NCBI RefSeq assembly: GCF_900101505.1
Contig: NZ_FMZI01000009.1
Span: 124,001-188,000, forward strand
From: Antarctobacter albus
Lineage (GTDB): Bacteria; Pseudomonadota; Alphaproteobacteria; Rhodobacterales; Rhodobacteraceae
Direction: 5' to 3'
Length of the DNA stretch: 64,000 nucleotides
The notes beneath the pieces were generated by a model that was given only the letters and a program-made list of their open reading frames with translations, did no database searches and was not told the origin of the DNA. This document shows, piece after piece, positions 24,810-57,842 of the stretch. A program made the translations under genes and the position numbers. Positions within the stretch are counted from its first letter, which is position 1, and every line of letters begins with the position of its first letter.

Positions 24810-25541
24810 TCAGCTTTTCAGCCAGAGCGCCTCTTCCCCAAGCGTTTCGACAAAGGCGGCGTGAGCCGCCTTTTCCTTTTCCGTCAGTCGGCTGGGCAGC
24901 GGATTGCTGCGCGGACGCGGACGCCAGAGCGGTTCGGCCCCGGCTCCGCCACCGCCCGATCCTTGGGACGACAGGCCGAAGTCCGGCTGCTTTCCCCCGA
25001 TCAGTTCAAGGTAGACCTCGGCCAGGATTTCGGAGTCGAGAAGCGCCCCGTGCAACGTCCGCGAGGAGTTGTCGATGCTGAACCGGCGGCAGAGCGCGTC
25101 GAGCGAGGCAGGTGAGCCGGGAAAGCGGCGCCGTGCCATGTCCAGCGTGTCGATGGCGCAATCCTTGGCCAGGGGCGGGCGGTTGGCCCAGCGCAATTCG
25201 GCATTCAGGAACTTCACGTCGAAGCTGGCGTTGTGGATGACCAGCTTGGCATCCTCACCGATGAAGGCGCGGAATTCGTCCACGATCTTGGCGAAGACCG
25301 GCTTGTCGCGCAGGGTGATTTCGCCCGGCTTGGCCGGGCGCGGCGGTTCCAGCAGGTCGGGCCCGATGCCATGCACGCCAAAGGCCTCGTCCGGCATCCC
25401 GCGTTCGGGGTTGATGTACTGGTGATAAGTGCGCCCGGTGGGCACGTGGTTGTACAGTTCCAGCGCCCCGATTTCGACGATGCGGTCGCCCTGTTCCGGC
25501 TCGAACCCGGTGGTTTCCGTATCGAGAACAATCTCACGCAT
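24810..25541 (-). CDS. dnaQ: DNA polymerase III subunit epsilon (proofreading 3'-5' exonuclease)
   Basis: The 243-residue product has the DEDDh exonuclease motifs: Asp7/Glu9 in [20 protein letters not shown] and the His-Asp motif [17 protein letters not shown] hexamer after the domain resembles a sliding-clamp binding motif; that is an inference. A Gly/Pro-rich linker and a short C-terminal segment would contact the polymerase subunit. It overlaps coaE by 8 nt. The dnaQ-coaE-aroE-maf order is typical beside alphaproteobacterial origins. Confidence 0.95.
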
Positions 25542-26127
25542 GTTGCAACCTTTGTTCGATGTCCTTCAGCACATCCTGCACCTGGGCGCGGGCATGCTCA
25601 AGCGTGTCGGTTTCGATGACATAGGTGGCGCGAGCGCATTTTTCCGCGTTGGGCATCTGGCGGGCGAGGATGCGGGCCAGGTCCTCGGCACTCATGGTGC
25701 CCCGGGCAAGCACGCGCCCCTCTTGCGTTTCACGGGAAACATTCACGCAGGCGGTGGCGTCCATTTGCGCATCGCCGCCGGTTTCGAACAACAAGGGGAT
25801 GTCGAAAACGCCGATGGCCTGCGGATGGGCAGCGATGAAAGCCTCCCGGTCCTCTTGCACAAGCGGATGCACGATCTCTTCGATCCGTTTCAGCGCAGTG
25901 GCATCATCAGCGATGATCCTGCGCAGCGCGTCGCGGGAAACCTGATCGTTTTCAATGGCTTGGGGAAAGATTTTCCCGATGGGTGCAACCGCGGCACCCT
26001 TTGGTCCATAAAGCCGGTGCACGGCCGCATCCGCGTCCCAGACGGCGCATCCCGCATCCGCGAACATCTGTGCGGTGGTCGATTTGCCCATGCCGATGGA
26101 GCCGGTCAGGCCAAGCTTGAACCTCAT
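25534..26127 (-). CDS. coaE: Dephospho-CoA kinase
   Basis: The 197-residue product has the P-loop [16 protein letters not shown] and the family segments [13 protein letters not shown] and [10 protein letters not shown]. It phosphorylates dephospho-CoA at the 3'-hydroxyl, the last step of CoA synthesis. It overlaps aroE (upstream) by 4 nt and dnaQ (downstream) by 8 nt. A degenerate parS copy is embedded in its coding sequence at VSRET. Confidence 0.95.
25726..25741 (-). other. Degenerate parS-like site inside coaE
   Basis: The 16-mer differs from the perfect parS sequence found at 30636 and 32538 at two positions. It is about 4.9 kb from the nearest perfect copy and encodes VSRET in coaE, the same peptide that the perfect site encodes in rsmG. 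Confidence 0.5.
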
Positions 26128-29353: not shown

Positions 29354-30631
29354 ATGGACACGATCTTTGCCCTGGCGAGCGCGGTCGGGAAAGCGGGCGT
29401 TTCGGTTGTGCGCGTGTCCGGACCCCTTGCCTGGGCGGCAGTGGAACGGCTGGGTGGACCCCTGCCCCGCCCGCGCATGGCCTCTGTCCGGCGGTTGATT
29501 TCGGCGGGCGGGGATTTCCTGGATGAGGCTCTGATCCTGATCTTCGAGGACGGGGCGAGCTTTACCGGGGAACGCGTGGCCGAGTTCCAAGTGCATGGCA
29601 GTGTGGCCGTGGTTCAGGCGCTGTTGCGGGAGCTAGGCGAAATGCCGGGTCTGCGCGGGGCGGAACCGGGGGAATTCACCCGGCGAGCCTTGGAAAACGA
29701 GCGTCTGGACCTGAGTCAGGTCGAGGCATTGGCGGACCTGATCGACTCGGAGACCGAGCAGCAGAGACGGCAGGCCTTGAGGATGCTGACCGGGGCGCTG
29801 GGGACCCGCGTGGGAGAATGGCGCGAGAAGATCCTGCGCGCCGTGTCTTTGTTGGAAGTGACGATCGACTTTGTCGATGAAGAGGTGCCGGTGGATGTCT
29901 CGGACGAAGTTCGGGATCTCCTGCAATTTGTCAGCGAAGATATCCGGCGTGAGCTGCGCGGATTGGAATCGGCAGAGCGGGTGCGGCTGGGGTTCGAGGT
30001 GGCGATTGTTGGTCCGCCGAATGCGGGCAAGTCGACGCTGTTGAATTACCTCGCCGGTCGTGATGCGGCGATCACCTCTGACGTCGCGGGCACCACGCGG
30101 GACGTGATCGAGGTGCGTATGGATATTGGAGGCCTGGCCGTGACCCTGCTGGACACGGCCGGTCTGCGCGACTCGGATGACAGTGTCGAACAGATTGGCG
30201 TGGCGCGGGCCCGGGAACGGGCCGGTGCGGCCGACCTGAGGGTTCACCTTGTGCCCGAGGGGGACACCCCCATGCTGGCGGTTGCCGAGGGCGACATCGT
30301 CGTCACCGCAAAGGGGGACAAGGCTGGCCAGGGTGTGTCCGGACTGACGGGTCTTGGCGTACCCGAGCTTTTGTCGCGGATCGAAGCGCGTCTGGTCGAA
30401 AAGGTGCAAGGCGCCGGGCTGGCCTCGCGCGAACGGCACAGGGTTGCGCTGGCCGAGGGTCTGACCCATCTGGAACAGGCGCAGGTGCTTTTGAATGATG
30501 GTCTCGACGTGTACGATGTGACCAGCGAGGAAGTCCGTATCGCCTTGCGGGCTTTGGAACAGCTGGTGGGTCACGTGGATGTCGAACAGGTTCTTGACCA
30601 GATCTTTTCCAGCTTCTGCATTGGCAAGTGA
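29354..30631 (+). CDS. mnmE: tRNA uridine-34 modification GTPase MnmE
   Basis: The 425-residue product has an N-terminal tetrahydrofolate-binding domain, a helical domain and an inserted GTPase with G1 GPPNAGKST at about residue 219 and G3 DTAGLRDS. The catalytic C-terminal FCIGK motif is present. With MnmG it makes the cmnm5 modification at the tRNA wobble uridine. The usual G4 NKxD reads AKGD (about residues 317-320), a deviation in guanine recognition. mnmG follows after 3 nt. Confidence 0.95.
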   Translation: MDTIFALASAVGKAGVSVVRVSGPLAWAAVERLGGPLPRPRMASVRRLISAGGDFLDEALILIFEDGASFTGERVAEFQVHGSVAVVQALLRELGEMPGLRGAEPGEFTRRALENERLDLSQVEALADLIDSETEQQRRQALRMLTGALGTRVGEWREKILRAVSLLEVTIDFVDEEVPVDVSDEVRDLLQFVSEDIRRELRGLESAERVRLGFEVAIVGPPNAGKSTLLNYLAGRDAAITSDVAGTTRDVIEVRMDIGGLAVTLLDTAGLRDSDDSVEQIGVARARERAGAADLRVHLVPEGDTPMLAVAEGDIVVTAKGDKAGQGVSGLTGLGVPELLSRIEARLVEKVQGAGLASRERHRVALAEGLTHLEQAQVLLNDGLDVYDVTSEEVRIALRALEQLVGHVDVEQVLDQIFSSFCIGK

Positions 30632-30634
30632 GGA

Positions 30635-32512
30635 GTGTTTCACGTGAAACATGAGGCCTTTGATGTTGTCGTCGTCGGTGGCGGCCATGCTGGAACCGAG
30701 GCTTCCGCGGCCTCGGCCCGGATGGGTGCACGCACGGCGCTTGTGACCCTGCGCCTCCAAGATCTTGGGGTCATGTCCTGCAACCCGGCGATTGGTGGTT
30801 TGGGCAAGGGGCATCTTGTCCGCGAAATCGACGCGATGGACGGGATCATGGGGCGGATTGCCGATGCAGCGGGAATCCAGTTTCGCCTGTTGAACCGACG
30901 CAAGGGGCCGGCGGTGCAAGGCCCCCGTGCCCAGGCGGATCGCCGGTTATATGCCGAGGCAATGCAGGCCGAGATCGCGGGTACGGAAAACCTGCAGGTC
31001 ATCGAGGGTGAAGTCGTCGACTTCCTGATGTCCGGTGGCCGCGTCGAGGGCGTAGCGCTGGCGGATGGCTCTGAGATCCGGGCGGTGTCGACGGTGCTGA
31101 CAAGTGGCACCTTTCTGCGCGGAATCATTCATATCGGCGATGTTCAGAAGCCGGGTGGCCGGATGGGTGATCGCCCGTCGGTCCGTCTTGCCGATCGTAT
31201 CAAAGAGATGGACCTGCCGATTGGCCGGTTGAAGACGGGGACGCCCCCGCGTCTCGACGGGCGCACCATTGACTGGAGCGGCCTCGACATGCAGCCGGGC
31301 GACGATGACCCGGTGATGTTCTCCTTCCTCTCCCCTGCCCCGCAGGCGCGGCAGATTTCCTGTGGCATCACGCATACCACGGAACGCACTCATGAAATCA
31401 TCCGGGACAACCTGTCCCGCTCTGCAATGTACGGCGGGCATATCGAAGGGGTTGGCCCGCGCTATTGCCCCTCGATCGAGGACAAGGTGGTGCGGTTCGC
31501 GGACAAGACCTCTCACCAGGTTTTCCTGGAGCCGGAAGGTCTGGATGTTCCGACGATCTATCCGAACGGGATTTCGACCTCCCTGCCCCAGGATATCCAG
31601 GAGGCCTATGTCCGGAGCATTCCCGGTCTTGAACGGGTCGAGATCATGCAGCCCGGCTATGCCATCGAATATGACTATGTCGATCCCCGCGCGCTGGCGG
31701 CGACATTGCGCTTGCGTGACGTCGAGGGGCTGTACCTGGCCGGGCAGATCAACGGAACAACGGGTTATGAGGAAGCAGCCGCCCAGGGTCTTGTCGCCGG
31801 TCTGAACGCGGCGGCTCAAGCGCAAGGCCGAGAGGCGATCAAGTTCTCGCGGACGGAAAGCTATATCGGGGTGATGCTGGATGACCTGACCACGCGGGGC
31901 GTCAGCGAACCCTACCGCATGTTCACCAGCCGGGCGGAATTCCGTTTATCCTTGCGTGCGGATAACGCGGATCAGCGCCTGACGCCCAAGGCAATTGCAC
32001 TTGGCACCGTGGCCGCCGGGCGGCGGAGTGCCTATGATGATAAGATGGAGCGTCTTGCGGCGGGTCGGGAGAAACTGGATGCGCTGTCGTTCAGCCCTAA
32101 CCAGTTGAGATCCATCGGGATCAACGTCAACCAAGATGGCGTGGGCAGAAGCGGGTTCCAGATGCTGTCGTTTAAGGATGTTTCCCTGCAGACCCTTGTG
32201 CAGCTGGACGAGGGTCTGGGGGTTCTGGATTCGGAAACAGCCGCGCAGCTGGAGCGGGAGGCGTTGTACGCGAATTACCTGGAACGCCAGGCGCGGGACG
32301 TGGAAGTTCTCAAGAAGGATGAAGCTGTTGAAATCCCCCTGGGATTCGATTTTGAATCCCTGCAGGGTCTGTCCAACGAGTTGAAGATGAAGCTGACGCG
32401 GACACGGCCTGAAACGATTGCCCAGGCGGGTCGAATCGACGGGATGACACCGGCGGCCTTGACCTTGATTCTTGCCAAGTTGCGTCAGCATTTGCGTAAA
32501 GACGCGGTATGA
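30635..32512 (+). CDS. mnmG: tRNA uridine-34 modification enzyme MnmG (GidA)
   Basis: The 625-residue product has the FAD-binding motif [12 protein letters not shown] near its N-terminus, the MnmG signatures [12 protein letters not shown] and GTFLRG, and the C-terminal helical domain that binds MnmE. The likely start is a GTG whose following codons spell FHVKH because a perfect parS site covers them, so the N-terminus appears shaped by the DNA site. The stop overlaps the rsmG start by 4 nt. Confidence 0.96.
30636..30651. other. parS centromere site (perfect, at the mnmG start)
   Basis: The 16-bp palindrome TGTTTCACGTGAAACA is identical to the classical ParB-binding parS sequence. It begins one base into the mnmG GTG start codon and encodes FHVKH. 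It lies 3.3 kb upstream of parB. Confidence 0.95.
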
Positions 32513-33126
32513 TCACGTCTGAAACGCTTGGCTTCGATGTTTCACGTGAAACACTGGAGCGCCTGAATCACTACTTGGCACTACTGAACAAGTGGAATCC
32601 GCGCATCAACCTGGTCGCGCGGGCCACGCTGGCAGAGGCTGTCGACCGGCATTTCGCGGATTCCGCCCAATTGGTGATGGTCCTCCCCCGGCCTTTGGGC
32701 CATTGGGTCGATATCGGCAGCGGCGGTGGTTTTCCCGGGCTTGTTGTTGCAACCCTGCTGGCGGAACGCGCGCCGGATATGTCCGTCAGCCTGATCGAAT
32801 CGGACACCCGCAAGGCGACCTTCCTGCGCAGTGTCATCCGTGAAACCGGTCTTTCGGCCAAAGTCCACGCGCAGAGGATAGAGGCCTGTGCACCCCAAGA
32901 GGCGACAGTCCTTTCGGCACGTGCCCTCGCCCCTTTGCCGAAGCTGATGGAATTTGCGGCACGCCACCTTGCCCCGGGGGGGATTGCATTGTTCATGAAG
33001 GGCGAAAGCTGGGGAAAAGAGCTCGAAGACGCACGCAGCCAATGGCAATTCTCCTGCACCCCGCATACAAGTAGAACCAACCCCAACGCAGTTGTCCTGG
33101 AAATCGGAGACCTCGTCCATGTCTGA
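32509..33126 (+). CDS. rsmG: 16S rRNA (guanine-527-N7)-methyltransferase RsmG (GidB)
   Basis: The 205-residue product has the SAM-binding motif [12 protein letters not shown], the family segment [12 protein letters not shown] and [15 protein letters not shown]. It methylates G527 of 16S rRNA. The ATG overlaps the mnmG stop (ATGA) and its 3' end overlaps the parA start by 8 nt, so the whole mnmE-parB stretch reads as one coupled unit. A perfect parS site sits in codons about 10-15 (VSRET). Confidence 0.95.
32538..32553. other. parS centromere site (perfect, inside rsmG)
   Basis: A second exact copy of TGTTTCACGTGAAACA lies 1.9 kb from the first, inside the 5' end of rsmG in a frame that gives VSRET. 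Two identical palindromes next to parAB make chance very unlikely. Confidence 0.95.
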
Positions 33127-33928
33127 TCCGACTCGCCCCCCGGGTCCGAAAATCATCGCCATCGCCAACCAGAAAGGCGGCGTGGGCAAGACCACGACGA
33201 CGATCAACCTCGGGGCCGCGCTGTGCGAACAAGGGCACAAGGTTCTCGTGGTGGATCTCGATCCACAGGGGAACGCCTCGACCGGACTGGGGATCGAGCC
33301 CGAAGACCGAGAGTTGACGACCTACGATCTGCTTCTGGGCGATGTTTCCCCGGCGGACGTGATCCTCAAGACCTCGACCGATAACCTTTCCCTCATCCCC
33401 GCCACGGTGGACCTCAGCTCGGCAGATATCGAGCTGTATTCCAACGAAAAACGCAGCTTTCTGCTGCATGACGCGCTGCGTCAACCCGCACTGGATGACT
33501 TTGGATTCGACGTGATCCTGGTGGATTGTCCGCCCTCGCTGAACCTGCTGACGGTCAATGCGATGGTCGCCGCGCATTCCGTCCTGGTCCCCCTGCAAAG
33601 TGAGTTCTTTGCGCTCGAAGGCCTGTCGCAACTCATGCTGACGATCCGTGAAGTCCGCCAAAGCGCCAATCCATCGCTGCGGATCGAGGGCATCGTCCTG
33701 ACGATGTACGACGCCCGCAACAACCTCTCCCAACATGTCGAGGCGGATGCGCGGGCCAACCTCGGGGACCTCGTGTTCTCGACAGTGATCCCCCGCAATG
33801 TGCGCGTTTCCGAGGCGCCCTCCTACGCGTTGCCGGTGCTGGCCTACGACACGTCTTCGAAAGGGGCGCAGGCCTATCGCGCCCTGGCCGAGGAACTGCT
33901 GAAGAAAAACGACAAACGGGCGGCCTGA
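33119..33928 (+). CDS. parA: Chromosome partitioning ATPase ParA
   Basis: The 269-residue product has the deviant Walker A QKGGVGKTTTTINLG (about residues 16-30), VDLDPQGNAST and VDCPPSLN, all typical of chromosomal ParA/Soj. It forms an ATP-dependent gradient on the nucleoid that moves ParB-parS complexes. The ATG giving MSDPTRPPG was chosen; it overlaps rsmG by 8 nt and sits after GGAGA. parB follows after 22 nt. Confidence 0.96.
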   Translation: MSDPTRPPGPKIIAIANQKGGVGKTTTTINLGAALCEQGHKVLVVDLDPQGNASTGLGIEPEDRELTTYDLLLGDVSPADVILKTSTDNLSLIPATVDLSSADIELYSNEKRSFLLHDALRQPALDDFGFDVILVDCPPSLNLLTVNAMVAAHSVLVPLQSEFFALEGLSQLMLTIREVRQSANPSLRIEGIVLTMYDARNNLSQHVEADARANLGDLVFSTVIPRNVRVSEAPSYALPVLAYDTSSKGAQAYRALAEELLKKNDKRAA

Positions 33929-33950: not shown

Positions 33951-34865
33951 ATGGCAGAGAAACCCAAGAAAGACACCCGCCGCGGCCTGGGCCGCGGCCT
34001 TTCGGCACTCATGGCAGACGTGGGTCCGGCGCAGGAAACCACTCAGGCGGAAAGCCCCCGCCGGGCAGACCGCATGGTGCCGATCGAATCGCTGATCCCC
34101 AACCCGGACCAGCCCCGGCGCAGCTTTACCCAGGCCCAGCTGGATGAACTCGCCGCCTCGATCCGGACCAAGGGCGTGTTGCAACCGCTGATCGTGCGTC
34201 CCTCTCCGCATGAAGACGGCAAGTTCGAAATCGTCGCGGGTGAACGTCGCTGGCGCGCTTCGCAAATGGCGCAGCGGCATGAAATCCCGGTTCTCGTGCG
34301 GGATTTCGACGATACCGAAGTGCTCGAAGTTGCCATCATCGAGAACATCCAGCGGGCAGACCTGAACGCCATCGAAGAGGCCGCGGGCTATCGTCAGCTG
34401 ATGTTCAAGTTCGGTCACACTCAGGAAAAACTGGCCGAGGCCCTGGGCAAGAGCCGCAGCCACATCGCCAACCTGATGCGCCTTTTGAACCTGCCCGAAG
34501 GCGTGCAGGAGATGGTTTCCGAGGGCCAGCTGAGCGCAGGTCACGCCCGGGCGCTGATCACGGCGACCGATCCCGACGCATTGGCAAAGACGGTCTTGGC
34601 CAAGGGCCTGTCGGTGCGCGAGACCGAGAAGCTGGCCAAGCAGATGAACCCGGAGGCCAAGCCGCGCAAGAAGGCGCCCGAGGGGGCGTTCCAGGTGGAC
34701 AAGGATGCCGACACGCGCGCCCTCGAGGGGGATCTTAGCGCTGCGCTTGGCATGAAGGTGCGGATCGACCACAAGCCCGGCGATGACGCGGGGCGCCTGA
34801 CGATCTCCTACGATACACTGGAACAGCTGGACGCGCTCTGCGGCTTGCTCAGCACCTCGCGCTAG
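33951..34865 (+). CDS. parB: Chromosome partitioning protein ParB
   Basis: The 304-residue product has the N-terminal ParA-interacting stretch (RRGLGRGLSALMAD), the CTP-binding GERRWRAS box at about residue 97, ENIQRADLNAIEEA and a helix-turn-helix (EKLAEALGKSRSHIANLMRLL) that recognises parS. The C-terminal domain mediates dimerisation. It loads at parS and spreads as a CTP-dependent clamp. Its stop is 3 nt from that of the convergent hemW; the holA gene often found after parB in other alphaproteobacteria is absent. Confidence 0.96.
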   Translation: MAEKPKKDTRRGLGRGLSALMADVGPAQETTQAESPRRADRMVPIESLIPNPDQPRRSFTQAQLDELAASIRTKGVLQPLIVRPSPHEDGKFEIVAGERRWRASQMAQRHEIPVLVRDFDDTEVLEVAIIENIQRADLNAIEEAAGYRQLMFKFGHTQEKLAEALGKSRSHIANLMRLLNLPEGVQEMVSEGQLSAGHARALITATDPDALAKTVLAKGLSVRETEKLAKQMNPEAKPRKKAPEGAFQVDKDADTRALEGDLSAALGMKVRIDHKPGDDAGRLTISYDTLEQLDALCGLLSTSR

Positions 34866-39234: not shown

Positions 39235-41904
39235 TCAGCCTTTGTCCAGCAGTGCCTTGAGATCATAAAGCGCATCCAGGGCCTGGCGTGGGCTCAGGTC
39301 GTCCAGCGTCATGTCGCGCAGCTGTTCCTCGATCTTTGACGTTTGCCGTGACACCGGCGGTTCCGATGCGCGGGCGGCGGCAGAGAAGAGCGGCAGGTCG
39401 TCGATCAGCGCCTTGGGCGAGGCGCGTTCCCGTTCGCCCTTTTCCAGCGCCTCGAGAACGTCGCGGGCGCGGGTGATGACCGCGGCAGGCAGGCCGGCCA
39501 GTTGAGCGACCTGCACGCCGTAAGAGCGGTCGGCAGCGCCTTCATGGACCTCGTGCAGGAAGATCACCTCGCCGTCCCATTCCTTGACCGCCACGGTGGC
39601 GTTCCGGACCCCGTCCAGCTTTCCCGCCAGTGCGGTAAGTTCATGATAATGCGTGGCAAACAGGCCACGGACGCGGTTGACCGCCTGCAGGTGTTCCAGC
39701 GTCGCCCAGGCGATCGACAAGCCGTCGTAGGTGGCGGTGCCACGACCGATCTCGTCGAGGATCACCAGCGCGCAGTCATCGGCCTGATTCAGGATCGTGG
39801 CCGTTTCGACCATTTCGACCATGAAGGTTGATCGTCCGCGCGCCAGGTCGTCGCTGGCGCCAACGCGGCTGAAGATCTGGCTGACCAGCCCGACGTGCGC
39901 CGATTGCGCCGGGACGTAAGAGCCGATCTGGGCCAGGAGGGCGATCAATGCGTTCTGCCGCAGGTAGGTCGATTTACCGGCCATGTTCGGCCCGGTCAGC
40001 AGGGTGACGGCCGCCCCCTGCCCGTCCGCGCTGAGATTGCAGTCATTGGCGATGAAGGGTTCGCCGGCCACGGCCAGCGCTGCCTCGACCACCGGGTGCC
40101 GTCCGCCTTCGATGGCAAAGGCGCGGCTGTCATCGACCCTTGGCAGGCACCAGTCCCGCTGCCGGGCCAGCTCCGCCAGGGCCAGCGCCAGGTCGATCTC
40201 GGCCAGGGCCAGCGCCAGGTCGGACAGCGCGGGCGCCTGGTCCATGATCTCGGCCCGCAGGTCCTCGTAGATGCGGCGCTCGATCTCCAGCGCCTCGTTG
40301 CCGGCGTTCAGGATGCGGCGTTCGAGTTCCGACAGTTCGACGGTGGTGAACCGGACCTGGTTCGCCGTGGTCTGGCGGTGGATGAAACGCTCTGACAGGG
40401 CGAACATCTTGTCCGCATGTACCGCCGTCGTCTCGATGAAATACCCCAGCACGTTGTTGTGCTTGATCTTGAGCGAGGTGACGCCGGTTTCCTGCGCGTA
40501 TTCCCCCTGCATCCGGGCAATGACGCCCCTGCCCTCGTCGCGCAGCGTGCGCGCCTCGTCCAGCGCGGCGTCGAACCCCGGCGCGACAAAGCCGCCGTCG
40601 CTGACGCGCAGGCCCGGTTCTGCCACCAGCGCCTCGTCCAGCCTGTCCAGAAGCGCCTCCTGCCCGGTCAGCGCAGCGCTGGACCGGGCCACCAGGTCCG
40701 GCAAGTCGACACCCGACAGCCGGTCCGCGATCTGCCCGGCTTGCGCCAGCGCGGTGCGCACCGCTGCCAGGTCACGCGGGCCGCCCCGGTCCAGCCCCAG
40801 CCGCGACAGCGCCCGGTCGACGTCAGGCACCTCTTTCAAGGCGCCGCGCAGCATGTCGGCCATCGGTCCCTCGACGCCCCAGCGCACCGCCTCCAGCCGC
40901 TCGTGGATGACTGCCAGATCGCGTGAGGGCGAGGCGACGCGCCGTTCCAGAAGGCGCGCACCGGCGGAGGTCACGGTCATGTCGATCACCGACAGGAGAG
41001 AGCCCTTGCGCCCGCCCTGCAGGCTTTCGGTCAGTTCCAGGTTGCGCCGGGTGGCCGCGTCGATCTGCAGGATGCGGCTGACCTGCTCCTGCCGGGGCGG
41101 TCGCAGCAGCGGCAGGCGGCCTTTCTGGGTGATGTCCAGGTAATCGACAAGCGCGCCCATCGCGGACAGTTCGGCCCGGTCGAAGCTGCCGAAGCCGGTC
41201 AGCGTCTGCACCTTGAACAGCTTGCACAGCCGCCCTTCGGCGGCGCCGGATTCGAAGCTTGCGGCGCCCAGCACCGTGGGGTCGATCCCGAGGTCGCCCA
41301 GCACCTCGCGCAGGGTGTCCCCTGTCGCGTCGGAACACAGCAGTTCCGAGGGGGCCAGCCGGGCCAGTTCGGCGCCGATGCGCGCCCGGCCCAGGGGCAT
41401 CACGTGAAACGCGCCGGTCGAGATATCCGCCCAGGCCAGCGCCCATTCCCCGCGCACGTGGCCAAGAGCGGCCAGGAAATTGTGCCGCCGTGCCTCCAGC
41501 AGCGAATCTTCGATCAACGTGCCCGGCGTGACCAGCCGCACCACGTCGCGTTTGACCACGGATTTCGAGCCGCGTTTCTTGGCCTCTTCGGGGGTTTCCA
41601 TCTGTTCGCCCACGGCGACGCGGAATCCCTTGCGGATCAGGGTCAGCAGATAGCCTTCGGCGGCATGCACCGGAACGCCGCACATCGGGATGTCGTCCCC
41701 GGCGTGTTTGCCGCGTTTGGTCAGCGCGATGTCCAGCGCCGCGCTGGCCGCCACCGCGTCGTCGAAGAACAGTTCGTAGAAATCCCCCATGCGGTAGAAC
41801 AGCAGCGCATCGGGATGGTTTGCCTTGATCTCGAGGTACTGCGCCATCATCGGCGTGACAGCGGTATCCCGTGGTGTACTCTTTCCCGCGTTGTTAGCGC
41901 TCAC
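39235..41904 (-). CDS. mutS: DNA mismatch repair protein MutS
   Basis: The 889-residue product has the N-terminal mismatch-recognition domain with the Phe-x-Glu type motif ([11 protein letters not shown]), connector, lever and clamp domains, and the ATPase with Walker [10 protein letters not shown] near residue 637, followed by [13 protein letters not shown]. It recognises base mismatches and starts repair. The C-terminal tail ends in [18 protein letters not shown], the usual tetramerisation-type tail. It is divergent from maeB across 83 nt. Confidence 0.97.
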
Positions 41905-55033: not shown

Positions 55034-56314
55034 TTGCAGACCCAGAGCACCAGTATCCCGTCCGGGCTGACAGGCGCTATTCAGCGCGTGCTGGTGGTCG
55101 ATGACAGCCGCGCCCAGCTGAAGATGGTCGAGACGATGGTCCGCCGCTGGGGGTACGAGGTGATGACCGCCGACTCCGGGCACCAGGCGCTGGAAATCGT
55201 GCGCCGGACGCCGCCGGATCTGATCCTTTCGGACTGGATGATGCCGGGCATGACGGGGTTGGAATTCTGTCGCCATTTCAGGGGCCTGTCCCAGAATGGA
55301 TACGGTTATTTCATCCTGCTCACCTCCAAGAGCGAGAAAGGCGACATTGCCAAGGGGCTGGACGCGGGCGCCGATGATTTCCTGACCAAGCCGGTCAACG
55401 CGCACGAATTGCGCGCGCGGATCAAGGCTGGAGAACGCATCGTGTCGATGGAACGGCAGCTGTCGGAAAAGAACCGCCAGGTCTCGGATGCGCTGGAGGA
55501 GTTGCGTGAGATCCACACCGCCATAGACAACGACCTGCGCCAGGCGCGCACGATCCAGCAATCGCTGGTCCCCGAACGTATCTGCGAGGTCCTGACGTCT
55601 CGCGTCAGCCTGCTGCTCAGGCCCTGCGGTCATGTCGGCGGTGACCTGGTGGGCGTGTTCAAGCCGGGGTTCGGGCGGCTGGGTCTCTACAGTATCGACG
55701 TCTCGGGCCACGGCATCACCTCGGCGATGGTGACGGCGCGGGTGGCGGGCTATCTGTCGTCGACCTTTCCGGAACAGAATGTTGCCCTGGAACGCCGGTT
55801 CGATCGGTTCTACGCCATGCGCGAACCGGCAGAGACGGCGCAGATGCTGAACCAGAGGCTGGCCGCCGATCCCGGGGTCGAAGAATACCTGACGATGGCC
55901 TATGTCGCGGCCGATCTTGCCTCGGGCCGGATGCGCATGGTGCAGGCCGGGCATTCGCCGCCGCTTTTGCTGCGGGCGGATGGCAGCCATGACTTCATCG
56001 GGGATGGCGGGCTGCCCATCGGCCTGGTCGACGAGGTCAGCTATGACCAGCACGATTTCCAGCTGCAGTCCGGGGACCGCCTGCTGCTTTATTCCGACGG
56101 GTTCACCGAGGCGGTGATGAAGAACGGCGAGATGCTGGGCGACGATGGCCTGGTCGAGATCTTTCGCGAAAGCGCCCGCACCGGCAGTGGGCCGGACCTG
56201 CTGGAGGACATGTTCTGGCGCCTGACACAGCAGATGGAAAGCGCCGCGAAACTGGGCGATGACGTTTCTGCCGCGCTGCTGGAATACGACGTTCTCAGGG
56301 ACGCCAGGGCCTGA
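55034..56314 (+). CDS. Response regulator with SpoIIE/PP2C-type serine phosphatase output
   Basis: The product has about 426 residues from a TTG start preceded by AGGGG. The N-terminal receiver domain has DD at 23-24, the phospho-acceptor Asp67 in LSDWMMPG and Lys in FLTKPV. A coiled coil (about residues 140-175) leads to a PP2C/SpoIIE domain with GGDLVGVF, DVSGHGITSAM, SDGFTEA and GDDVSAALL. Such RsbU-like proteins dephosphorylate an anti-sigma antagonist in general stress control. No anti-sigma kinase or antagonist gene is adjacent. Its 3' end overlaps the convergent NUDIX gene by 20 nt. Confidence 0.92.
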   Translation: MQTQSTSIPSGLTGAIQRVLVVDDSRAQLKMVETMVRRWGYEVMTADSGHQALEIVRRTPPDLILSDWMMPGMTGLEFCRHFRGLSQNGYGYFILLTSKSEKGDIAKGLDAGADDFLTKPVNAHELRARIKAGERIVSMERQLSEKNRQVSDALEELREIHTAIDNDLRQARTIQQSLVPERICEVLTSRVSLLLRPCGHVGGDLVGVFKPGFGRLGLYSIDVSGHGITSAMVTARVAGYLSSTFPEQNVALERRFDRFYAMREPAETAQMLNQRLAADPGVEEYLTMAYVAADLASGRMRMVQAGHSPPLLLRADGSHDFIGDGGLPIGLVDEVSYDQHDFQLQSGDRLLLYSDGFTEAVMKNGEMLGDDGLVEIFRESARTGSGPDLLEDMFWRLTQQMESAAKLGDDVSAALLEYDVLRDARA

Positions 56315-56756
56315 CGTTCCGCAGGCAGAATTCCCGGACAAAGCTGCTGTCGCCGCGATTGCCAAGCTCTTGCACCGCCATCTCGGGGCTGCGCCAGATC
56401 GCGGTATGCCCGGCTTCTGTCGGGGGGCCGTGCGGTCGCACCGGCTGCGCCGTGTAGATCACGCAGAGCTTTTCCGCCCAGAGATCGTATTCCGGCATGA
56501 AGGTGAACCGCCGGAAGGCACCCAGCCGGCGCGGCCGGGCGATTCGCCAGCCGGTTTCCTCGAACACCTCGCGGTGCAGGGCGGTCAGCGGATGTTCCCC
56601 CGGGTCGATGCCGCCGCCGGGCAGTTGCACCTCTGGTCCCGGGTCGGCCTGCAGCGTCAGCAACAGGCGCCCGGCGCGGGGCAGGATGGCATAGACGCCG
56701 GGCCGCAGAGTATAGCGCCGACCGGGTTCCGGCGGCGTGCCGATCCTGGGTGTCAT
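56295..56756 (-). CDS. NUDIX hydrolase
   Basis: The 153-residue product has a complete NUDIX box, beginning GGGIDPGEHPLTALHREVF and ending EETGW. Substrate specificity is not evident. It overlaps the 3' end of the phosphatase gene by 20 nt in convergent orientation and is divergent from hslO. Confidence 0.88.
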   Translation of the reverse strand: MTPRIGTPPEPGRRYTLRPGVYAILPRAGRLLLTLQADPGPEVQLPGGGIDPGEHPLTALHREVFEETGWRIARPRRLGAFRRFTFMPEYDLWAEKLCVIYTAQPVRPHGPPTEAGHTAIWRSPEMAVQELGNRGDSSFVREFCLRNVRPWRP

Positions 56757-56834
56757 CCCTGGCCCCCTTTGCGTCCGGGTTCATTCCTCTTATATGGTCG
56801 CGATATGCCAGCCAAAGGCAGACAAGGAAACCCC

Positions 56835-57842
56835 ATGAGCATCGGCAACAAACTCGCCTGGGACGACACCGTCCTACCCTTTCAGCTTGACCGTTCGGAC
56901 ATGCGCGGCCGGGTCGCCCGGCTTGACGGCGTGCTGTCCGGCGTTCTGAGACAGCACGATTACCCCGCCCCGGTCGAGGCACTGGTGGCCGAGATGGCAC
57001 TGTTGACCGCGCTGATCGGCCAAACCATCAAGCTGCGCTGGAAACTGTCGCTGCAGGTGCAGACGAACGGCCCGGTGCGGATGATCGCCACCGATTACTT
57101 CGGCCCCGAGGAAGAAGGCCAGCCGGCGCGTATCCGGGCCTATGCCAGTTTCGACCGGGACCGGATCACCGACGCGCCGCCGTTCCAGCAGCTTGGCTCG
57201 GGCTATTTCGCGATCCTGATCGACCAGGGCAAGGGGATGCAACCCTACCAGGGCATCACCCCCATCGCGGGCAGCAGCCTGTCGGATTGCGCCGCCGCCT
57301 ATTTCGCGCAGTCCGAACAGCTGCCCACCACCTTTGCGCTGTCCTATGGCCGGTCGACCGAACCGGGCGTGGCCGAACATTGGCGTGCGGGGGGCATCAT
57401 GCTGCAGCACATGCCCAAGGCCTCGCCTTTTGCCAGCGGCGAAGGCGGGTCGGGTGACGAAGGGTTGCTGCAGGCCGAGGATCTGCTCAGCGGCGACAAC
57501 GAGGAAAACTGGAACCGGGTCAACAGCCACCTGCATACGCTGGAGGAAATGGAGCTGATCGGCCCGACCGTGCCGCCGACAGAGCTGTTGTTGCGCCTGT
57601 TCCACGAGGAACAGCCGCGGGTCTACGATGCGCAGCCGGTGCGTTTCGGCTGTACCTGCTCCGAGGATCGCGTGCGCCAGAGCCTGTCGATCTACTCGGC
57701 CCGGGACATCGAGAAGATGACCACGGACGAAGGGCTGGTGACGGCGGATTGCCAGTTCTGCGGCGCACATTACACGCTGGACCCTGCCAGCGTAGGGTTC
57801 GAGGCCGATGGGTCCGATGACACGGCCAATGACACGGAATGA
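56835..57842 (+). CDS. hslO: Redox-regulated chaperone Hsp33
   Basis: The 335-residue product has an N-terminal substrate-binding domain (MALLTALIGQTIKLRWKLSLQ, GVAEHWRAGGIMLQHMP) and the C-terminal zinc switch with CxC (CTCSEDRV) and CxxC (CQFCGAHY). Oxidation of these cysteines releases zinc and activates the chaperone. The ATG giving MSIGNK was chosen because AAGGAA precedes it. It overlaps the following NUDIX gene. Confidence 0.95.
   Translation: MSIGNKLAWDDTVLPFQLDRSDMRGRVARLDGVLSGVLRQHDYPAPVEALVAEMALLTALIGQTIKLRWKLSLQVQTNGPVRMIATDYFGPEEEGQPARIRAYASFDRDRITDAPPFQQLGSGYFAILIDQGKGMQPYQGITPIAGSSLSDCAAAYFAQSEQLPTTFALSYGRSTEPGVAEHWRAGGIMLQHMPKASPFASGEGGSGDEGLLQAEDLLSGDNEENWNRVNSHLHTLEEMELIGPTVPPTELLLRLFHEEQPRVYDAQPVRFGCTCSEDRVRQSLSIYSARDIEKMTTDEGLVTADCQFCGAHYTLDPASVGFEADGSDDTANDTE

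Follow-up and report, generated by a model that had tools for sequence, protein, structure and literature searches.

Two perfect parS palindromes at mnmG and rsmG of Antarctobacter albus and the protein sequence they appear to dictate

Genes and palindromes at the locus

We analyzed a window of 64,000 nucleotides of A. albus DNA, in which five genes, mnmE-mnmG-rsmG-parA-parB, stand in a row according to profile models and gene order (Table 1). The genes adjoining the sites described below include parA and parB. The ParB domain scored over the cut-off of its model, and the top-scoring model for this gene, nucleoid_noc, reached 238.8 bits, under its own cut-off of 315. ParA stayed below the cut-offs, with a top match of 102.3 bits among the ParA-family models and 0 of the 25 models listed reaching its own cut-off, so its assignment combines family similarity with gene order. 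The nearest named relatives found were Mameliella (RsmG identity of 91, 91, and 78%) and Antarctobacter heliothermus (72%).

The preliminary description of this DNA had reported two identical, perfect parS sites, and both are indeed there. The exact 16-mer TGTTTCACGTGAAACA, a 16-bp palindrome that we take to be the parS consensus, occurs once against the Shine-Dalgarno sequence of mnmG (site 1) and once inside rsmG (site 2). The second copy had been read as the peptide VSRET, and this reading holds: rsmG bases 32539-32553 are GTT TCA CGT GAA ACA, encoding V11-S12-R13-E14-T15. The 5.26-Mb genome has no further perfect copy, and these two are clustered in one region, 1.9 kb apart, with less than 2.5 kb separating either from the downstream parA. 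At a tolerance of up to 3 mismatches, the window held 4 matches versus a mean of 0.05 in 100 shuffles. With up to 2 mismatches, the whole genome held 3 matches (the perfect pair and the site at 25726-25741), and a reversed-pattern control gave 2; thus, only the perfect pair is clear of chance genome-wide. From the motif, the neighborhood, and the conservation described below, we infer that both sites function as parS. In a search for the replication origin, GC skew changed from positive to negative near 32.5 kb of the window, with fluctuation, and neither an exact DnaA box TTATCCACA nor its complement was found in the window.

Table 1. Coordinates of genes, palindromes, and translation signals in the window
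Feature	Position	Strand	Basis or remark
coaE, dephospho-CoA kinase	25534..26127	-	TIGR00152, 114 bits (cut-off 65.55); hosts the degenerate third site
Degenerate third parS-like site	25726..25741		2 mismatches; inside coaE (minus strand), reads VSRETQ
mnmE (trmE)	29354..30631	+	NF003661, 506.6 bits (cut-off 380); stop codon just 5' of parS site 1
Shine-Dalgarno AGGAG	30631..30635	+	Directly precedes parS site 1; spacing to the core GTG, 8 bases
GTG taken as mnmG start in the preliminary description	30635..30637	+	Unlikely start; overlaps the Shine-Dalgarno
parS site 1 (putative)	30636..30651		Perfect 16-bp palindrome TGTTTCACGTGAAACA; abuts the mnmG Shine-Dalgarno
mnmG (gidA)	30644..32512	+	TIGR00136, 795.7 bits (cut-off 524.85); start revised to the parS core GTG (probable)
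rsmG (gidB), 16S rRNA G527 methyltransferase	32509..33126	+	TIGR00138, 115.5 bits (cut-off 99.5)
parS site 2 (putative)	32538..32553		Perfect 16-bp palindrome TGTTTCACGTGAAACA; inside rsmG
parA, partition ATPase	33119..33928	+	Family similarity below cut-offs, and gene order
parB, presumed parS-binding protein	33951..34865	+	TIGR00180 ParB/RepB/Spo0J, 203.7 bits (cut-off 58.45)
Decayed parS-like counterpart	39340..39355		5 mismatches (counted by hand); near the 3' end of a mutS-like ORF

The match inside coaE retains one intact GTTTCAC half-site. All six genomes of the genus carried it at up to 2 mismatches, 4.91 to 4.92 kb from site 1, with letters differing between species. Across the family, only 3 of the 30 best coaE matches had it at up to 2 mismatches, the window itself being among these 3. 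We therefore rejected it as a full, family-wide third parS and classed it as a degenerate, genus-level site. A further counterpart lies in the ORF at 39235-41904, presumably mutS. It was within 3 mismatches in 5/5 genus relatives, 8.65 to 8.73 kb from site 1, and the copy in the window has decayed. As a separate observation, the palindrome-like TGTTCCACGAGGAACA at 57598-57613 has 3 mismatches to parS and lies inside ORF 56259-57842, whose C-terminal part, we assume, resembles Hsp33.

Conservation, codon usage, and the mnmG start in Rhodobacteraceae

The exact 16-mer was present in 278 of 284 Rhodobacteraceae genomes, with a reversed-pattern control of 0 in each row. By row count, 232 genomes carried two perfect copies, 30 carried one, 16 carried three, and 6 carried none. 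Our main family set consisted of 79 stretches from 74 genera (counted by hand); these are the best rsmG matches of a list and hence no random sample, and one of them, L087, is cut off at a contig end. A selected set comprised 20 stretches from the genomes with no or one perfect copy (20 of 36). Adding the window to the fetched family stretches, we could read the mnmG start in 99 sequences and the rsmG site in 99.

All 99 sequences that show the mnmG start carried site 1 at up to 2 mismatches from the consensus. For site 2, mismatches did not exceed 1 across the 79 sequences of the main set and 3 across the 20 of the selected set, and the rsmG codon register was identical throughout (99/99, up to 3 mismatches). 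Both sites were within 3 mismatches in 99/99 readable family sequences, though such counts are not independent events because the sequences are phylogenetically related. Conservation dropped abruptly at the edges of both palindromes: the commonest base had a frequency of 0.91 to 1.00 inside the 16 bases versus 0.33 to 0.88 at the tabulated flanks (99 sequences per site). The flanks exceeded this range only at positions 30-31 after the start of the mnmG site (0.92 and 1.00) and, for rsmG, at position 27 (0.95). In the six genomes of the genus, both sites were invariant at 16/16 bases, versus 54% invariant bases in mnmG or rsmG. Fully invariant 16-base windows made up 92 of 17,485 in this region, so that invariance at genus level alone is rare, yet not unique.

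Additional perfect parS copies were seen near mnmG or rsmG in three stretches: L056 (323 bases past the start of rsmG), L084 (294 bases before that start), and L108 (position 5153). Genomes G008, G142, and G272 carried perfect copies 37 to 80 bp apart.

Depressed synonymous variation at the motif had been proposed as a check in the preliminary description, and it was borne out by codon entropy as well as by the sharp edges of conservation. We anchored codon alignments on a parS-like site with up to 3 mismatches, so that those of RsmG begin with V of VSRET and those of MnmG with the core GTG; anchoring lost no stretch except the cut-off L087. The test covered 79 sequences (the window plus 78) and columns of at least 90% occupancy and at least 90% amino acid identity, with Met and Trp excluded. 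In RsmG, the VSRET codons gave the five lowest relative codon entropies of 49 columns (0, 0, 0, 0, and 0.12), the next lowest being 0.43 and the median 0.94. In MnmG, where the start GTG was scored against valine codons, the first two codons, GTG and AAA, were the lowest of 284 columns (both 0; next 0.52; median 0.96). The suppression of synonymous variation coincided exactly with the 16-bp element.

Site 1 had been described as beginning inside the mnmG start codon and as dictating the N-terminal peptide FHVKH. This is doubtful, as the first G of the GTG chosen there (30635) is also the last base of the AGGAG Shine-Dalgarno sequence, and the parS core codon (30644-30646) is GTG in 99/99 family sequences. 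GGAG stood at the exact 8-base spacing from the core GTG in 64/99 family sequences; in 10/99, the scan found no Shine-Dalgarno-like 4-mer. The codon nine bases upstream of the core was GTG in 74, ATG in 12, TTG in 2, and another codon in 11 of the 99; translation in those 11 must begin at the core GTG or at some other place. The core GTG is more probably the start of mnmG than the upstream GTG; it gives M-K-H, and FHVKH is probably untranslated as such. The first half of site 1 would then be ribosome-binding spacer, and the second half (8 of 16 bases) would be coding, as M-K-(H/Q). Of 79 sequences, 65 have G immediately before parS and 10 have A, so that an upstream GTG or ATG start is also possible in most species, and some species may possess an additional upstream start (dual starts). 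Four loci outside Rhodobacteraceae (L157, L165, L185, and L188) have a parS with no or one mismatch whose core GTG is likewise a possible MnmG start.

The rsmG register across the class

Of 240 genomes searched in the class Alphaproteobacteria, 215 had an rsmG match, and we retrieved 80 loci that lie outside Rhodobacteraceae and represent about 67 families (counted by hand). At the VSRET codon register, 57/80 loci were within 3 mismatches of parS and 23/80 had at least 6, with none in between. Those with the site read VSRET in 50 cases, VSCET, VPRET, and VSHET in 2 each, and VPRGT in 1. The 23 that lack parS at the register also lack VSRET there without exception, the nearest peptide being VASET (L189). 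In 19 of these 23, another part of the fetched stretch held a site with up to 1 mismatch, which in five (L113, L120, L132, L147, and L149) lay at a different place inside rsmG. Thus, the centromere is apparently still present in these loci and the peptide at the register is gone; the 23/80 without the rsmG site also indicate that this place is not indispensable. In other classes of the phylum, 143 genomes gave a match, and VSRET was absent from all of the 30 best loci among them. Upstream of mnmG, a site with up to 2 mismatches was found in 51/80 class loci, at varying distance, and was absent in 19/80; the MnmG motif was not found in 10.

Where the motif changes, further peptides appear: VPRGT, ASREA, VSCET, VSHET, and VPRET. 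Locus L115 carries TGTTCCACGTGGAACA at both positions, and its rsmG thereby reads VPRGT. The change to TGTTTCGCGCGAAACA at both positions in L151 is silent, leaving the amino acids as they were, and RsmG of L220 reads ASREA because its rsmG palindrome is TGCTTCACGTGAAGCA. The paired changes in these three preserve the palindrome, and of the 9 class sites that differ from parS at exactly two bases, 7 remain perfectly palindromic, although several of these palindromic double changes affect the outermost T1/A16 pair, where GC bias by itself could produce them. A general co-variation of the parS copies of a genome was not borne out. The rsmG site is a variant in 22 class loci; its letters recur at another site of the stretch in 5 of these and as the reverse complement in 1, and in 16 the other sites show only different letters.

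The preliminary description had seen in the palindromes a dual constraint to which mnmG and rsmG, both conserved, are subject. The bases do serve twice, but the constraint is not an equal one: the peptide is lost without the site, and the amino acids follow changes in the motif. This pattern suggests that the constraint runs from DNA to protein, parS deciding what is written, and RsmG seems to tolerate parS rather than to need the peptide.

Structure prediction from 7 sequences placed the first long helix of RsmG at residues 13-33, with S12 immediately before it. The serine of VSRET would be at the helix N-cap, which may make the frame tolerable. The second residue of the register was S, T, D, or N in 14/23 class loci without the site and in 25/30 loci of other classes (counted by hand).

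Explanations and biological meaning

We consider it highly probable that the palindromes are chromosomal parS sites of the neighboring ParAB, held by selection for ParB binding, and that the genes adapt. Selection would fix the parS sequence to which ParB is predicted to bind, and the surrounding genes would adjust to the spelling of the DNA. The motif is stop-free in two of three frames (V-S-R-E-T and F-H-V-K), the third holding TGA. In rsmG, parS is read as V-S-R-E-T; its serine would cap the N-terminal end of the first long helix, and the frequency of S, T, D, or N at this position in RsmG proteins without parS would explain how the centromere could last there so long. The spacer after mnmE is very short in Rhodobacteraceae, with parS lying between the Shine-Dalgarno sequence and the mnmG coding sequence; owing to this short spacer, the central CACGTG would supply the GTG start codon, and AAACA of parS would give Lys and the first two bases of His or Gln. 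For this explanation, the sites would not have to influence how mnmG or rsmG is expressed.

Such an influence would exist if the mnmG copy were also an operator, at which ParB represses or tunes mnmG-rsmG-parAB from the start region. In favor of this, ribosome-binding spacer and probable start codon both fall within the site in 99/99 family sequences, and the available text of a P. aeruginosa study describes ParB at intergenic parS3/parS4 repressing adjacent genes, although other genes of that region were unchanged (PMC7022226). However, mnmG follows directly after mnmE, hence with little promoter space, and the rsmG copy is intragenic, so we regard an operator as improbable. The family-wide version, in which ParB loading on a Rhodobacteraceae centromere in the mnmG translation start would also tune the expression of mnmG and rsmG-parA-parB, seems to us just as improbable. 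If true, it would hard-wire the occupancy of the partition complex to the dose of its own operon.

It is very unlikely that RsmG and MnmG require the peptides VSRET and FHVKH and that the palindromes are a by-product of protein conservation. VSRET is invariant in 79/79 readable sequences of the main set, yet its codons are frozen far more than those of other conserved residues, it occurs in 0/23 class loci without parS at the register and 0/30 loci of other classes, and changes in the palindrome alter amino acids. Peptide-driven conservation was thus rejected on account of the codon test and of the peptide disappearing together with the site. We give equally little credence to an mRNA hairpin around the mnmG start codon that conserves the palindrome through translation control. 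Within a 33-base stretch, the palindrome can fold as a stem with an ACGU loop, but the predicted energies are ordinary (z of -1.22 and -1.12 for the mnmG stretches and -1.20 for rsmG), and a hairpin would leave unexplained the identical sequence in rsmG and the class copies farther upstream. That the palindromes arose by chance or from repeats, without centromere function, is scarcely credible: nothing favors it for the perfect pair, even if the coaE site, as a single match at up to 2 mismatches against 2 in the reversed control, is unremarkable taken alone, and perfect copies are rare genome-wide and fixed in position in the family and most of the class sample.

For other partition systems, the presence of parS inside genes is published already. 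The original Bacillus parS sites are largely intragenic too. In P. aeruginosa PAO1, according to the available part of one study, 9 of 10 parS sites are predicted within coding sequences, and intragenic parS was mutated with the coding sequence unaltered (PMC4368675). The P. aeruginosa ParABS system is therefore alike in having 16-bp parS inside coding sequence, and differs in that the same part of the study makes no mention of a codon register fixed across a class or of a start codon within parS (PMC4368675). In Caulobacter crescentus, parS sites are described, in the portion of the paper available, within essential or high-fitness-cost genes, and the five strongest lie within 5 kb, compared with our two perfect sites 1.9 kb apart (PMC5815017); gidA and gidB have 0 occurrences in the main text of that paper.

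Half-sites offer a parallel for the degenerate copy. The accessible text of a further study states that P. aeruginosa ParB binds half-parS and that ParBs of several other species bind GTTCCAC and GTTTCAC (PMC7022226). The coaE site of the window resembles these in its one intact GTTTCAC half and differs from the numerous P. aeruginosa half-sites in being a near-full, putative ParB site that is fixed within the genus. In those parts of the literature available to us, neither a parS start codon nor a fixed rsmG register is recognised, and the survey of Livny and others (2007) may mention gidA/gidB. Against these partial sources, the fixed rsmG codon register and the probable use of a centromere core as a start codon look new. 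The sites themselves look functional and are mostly explained, as ordinary parS in an unusual and very stable embedding.

The locus provides an unusually clean case of a DNA-binding site dictating protein sequence, at one codon in 57/80 sampled alphaproteobacterial loci. Embedded parS would explain the recurring MKH/MKQ and VSRET peptides in these bacteria, and MnmG annotated from the upstream GTG (MFHVKH) would probably be wrong. The results also suggest that RsmG N-terminal peptides could serve to spot variant parS sites. Finally, a deletion of mnmG or rsmG in these organisms would take out centromere sites along with the gene.
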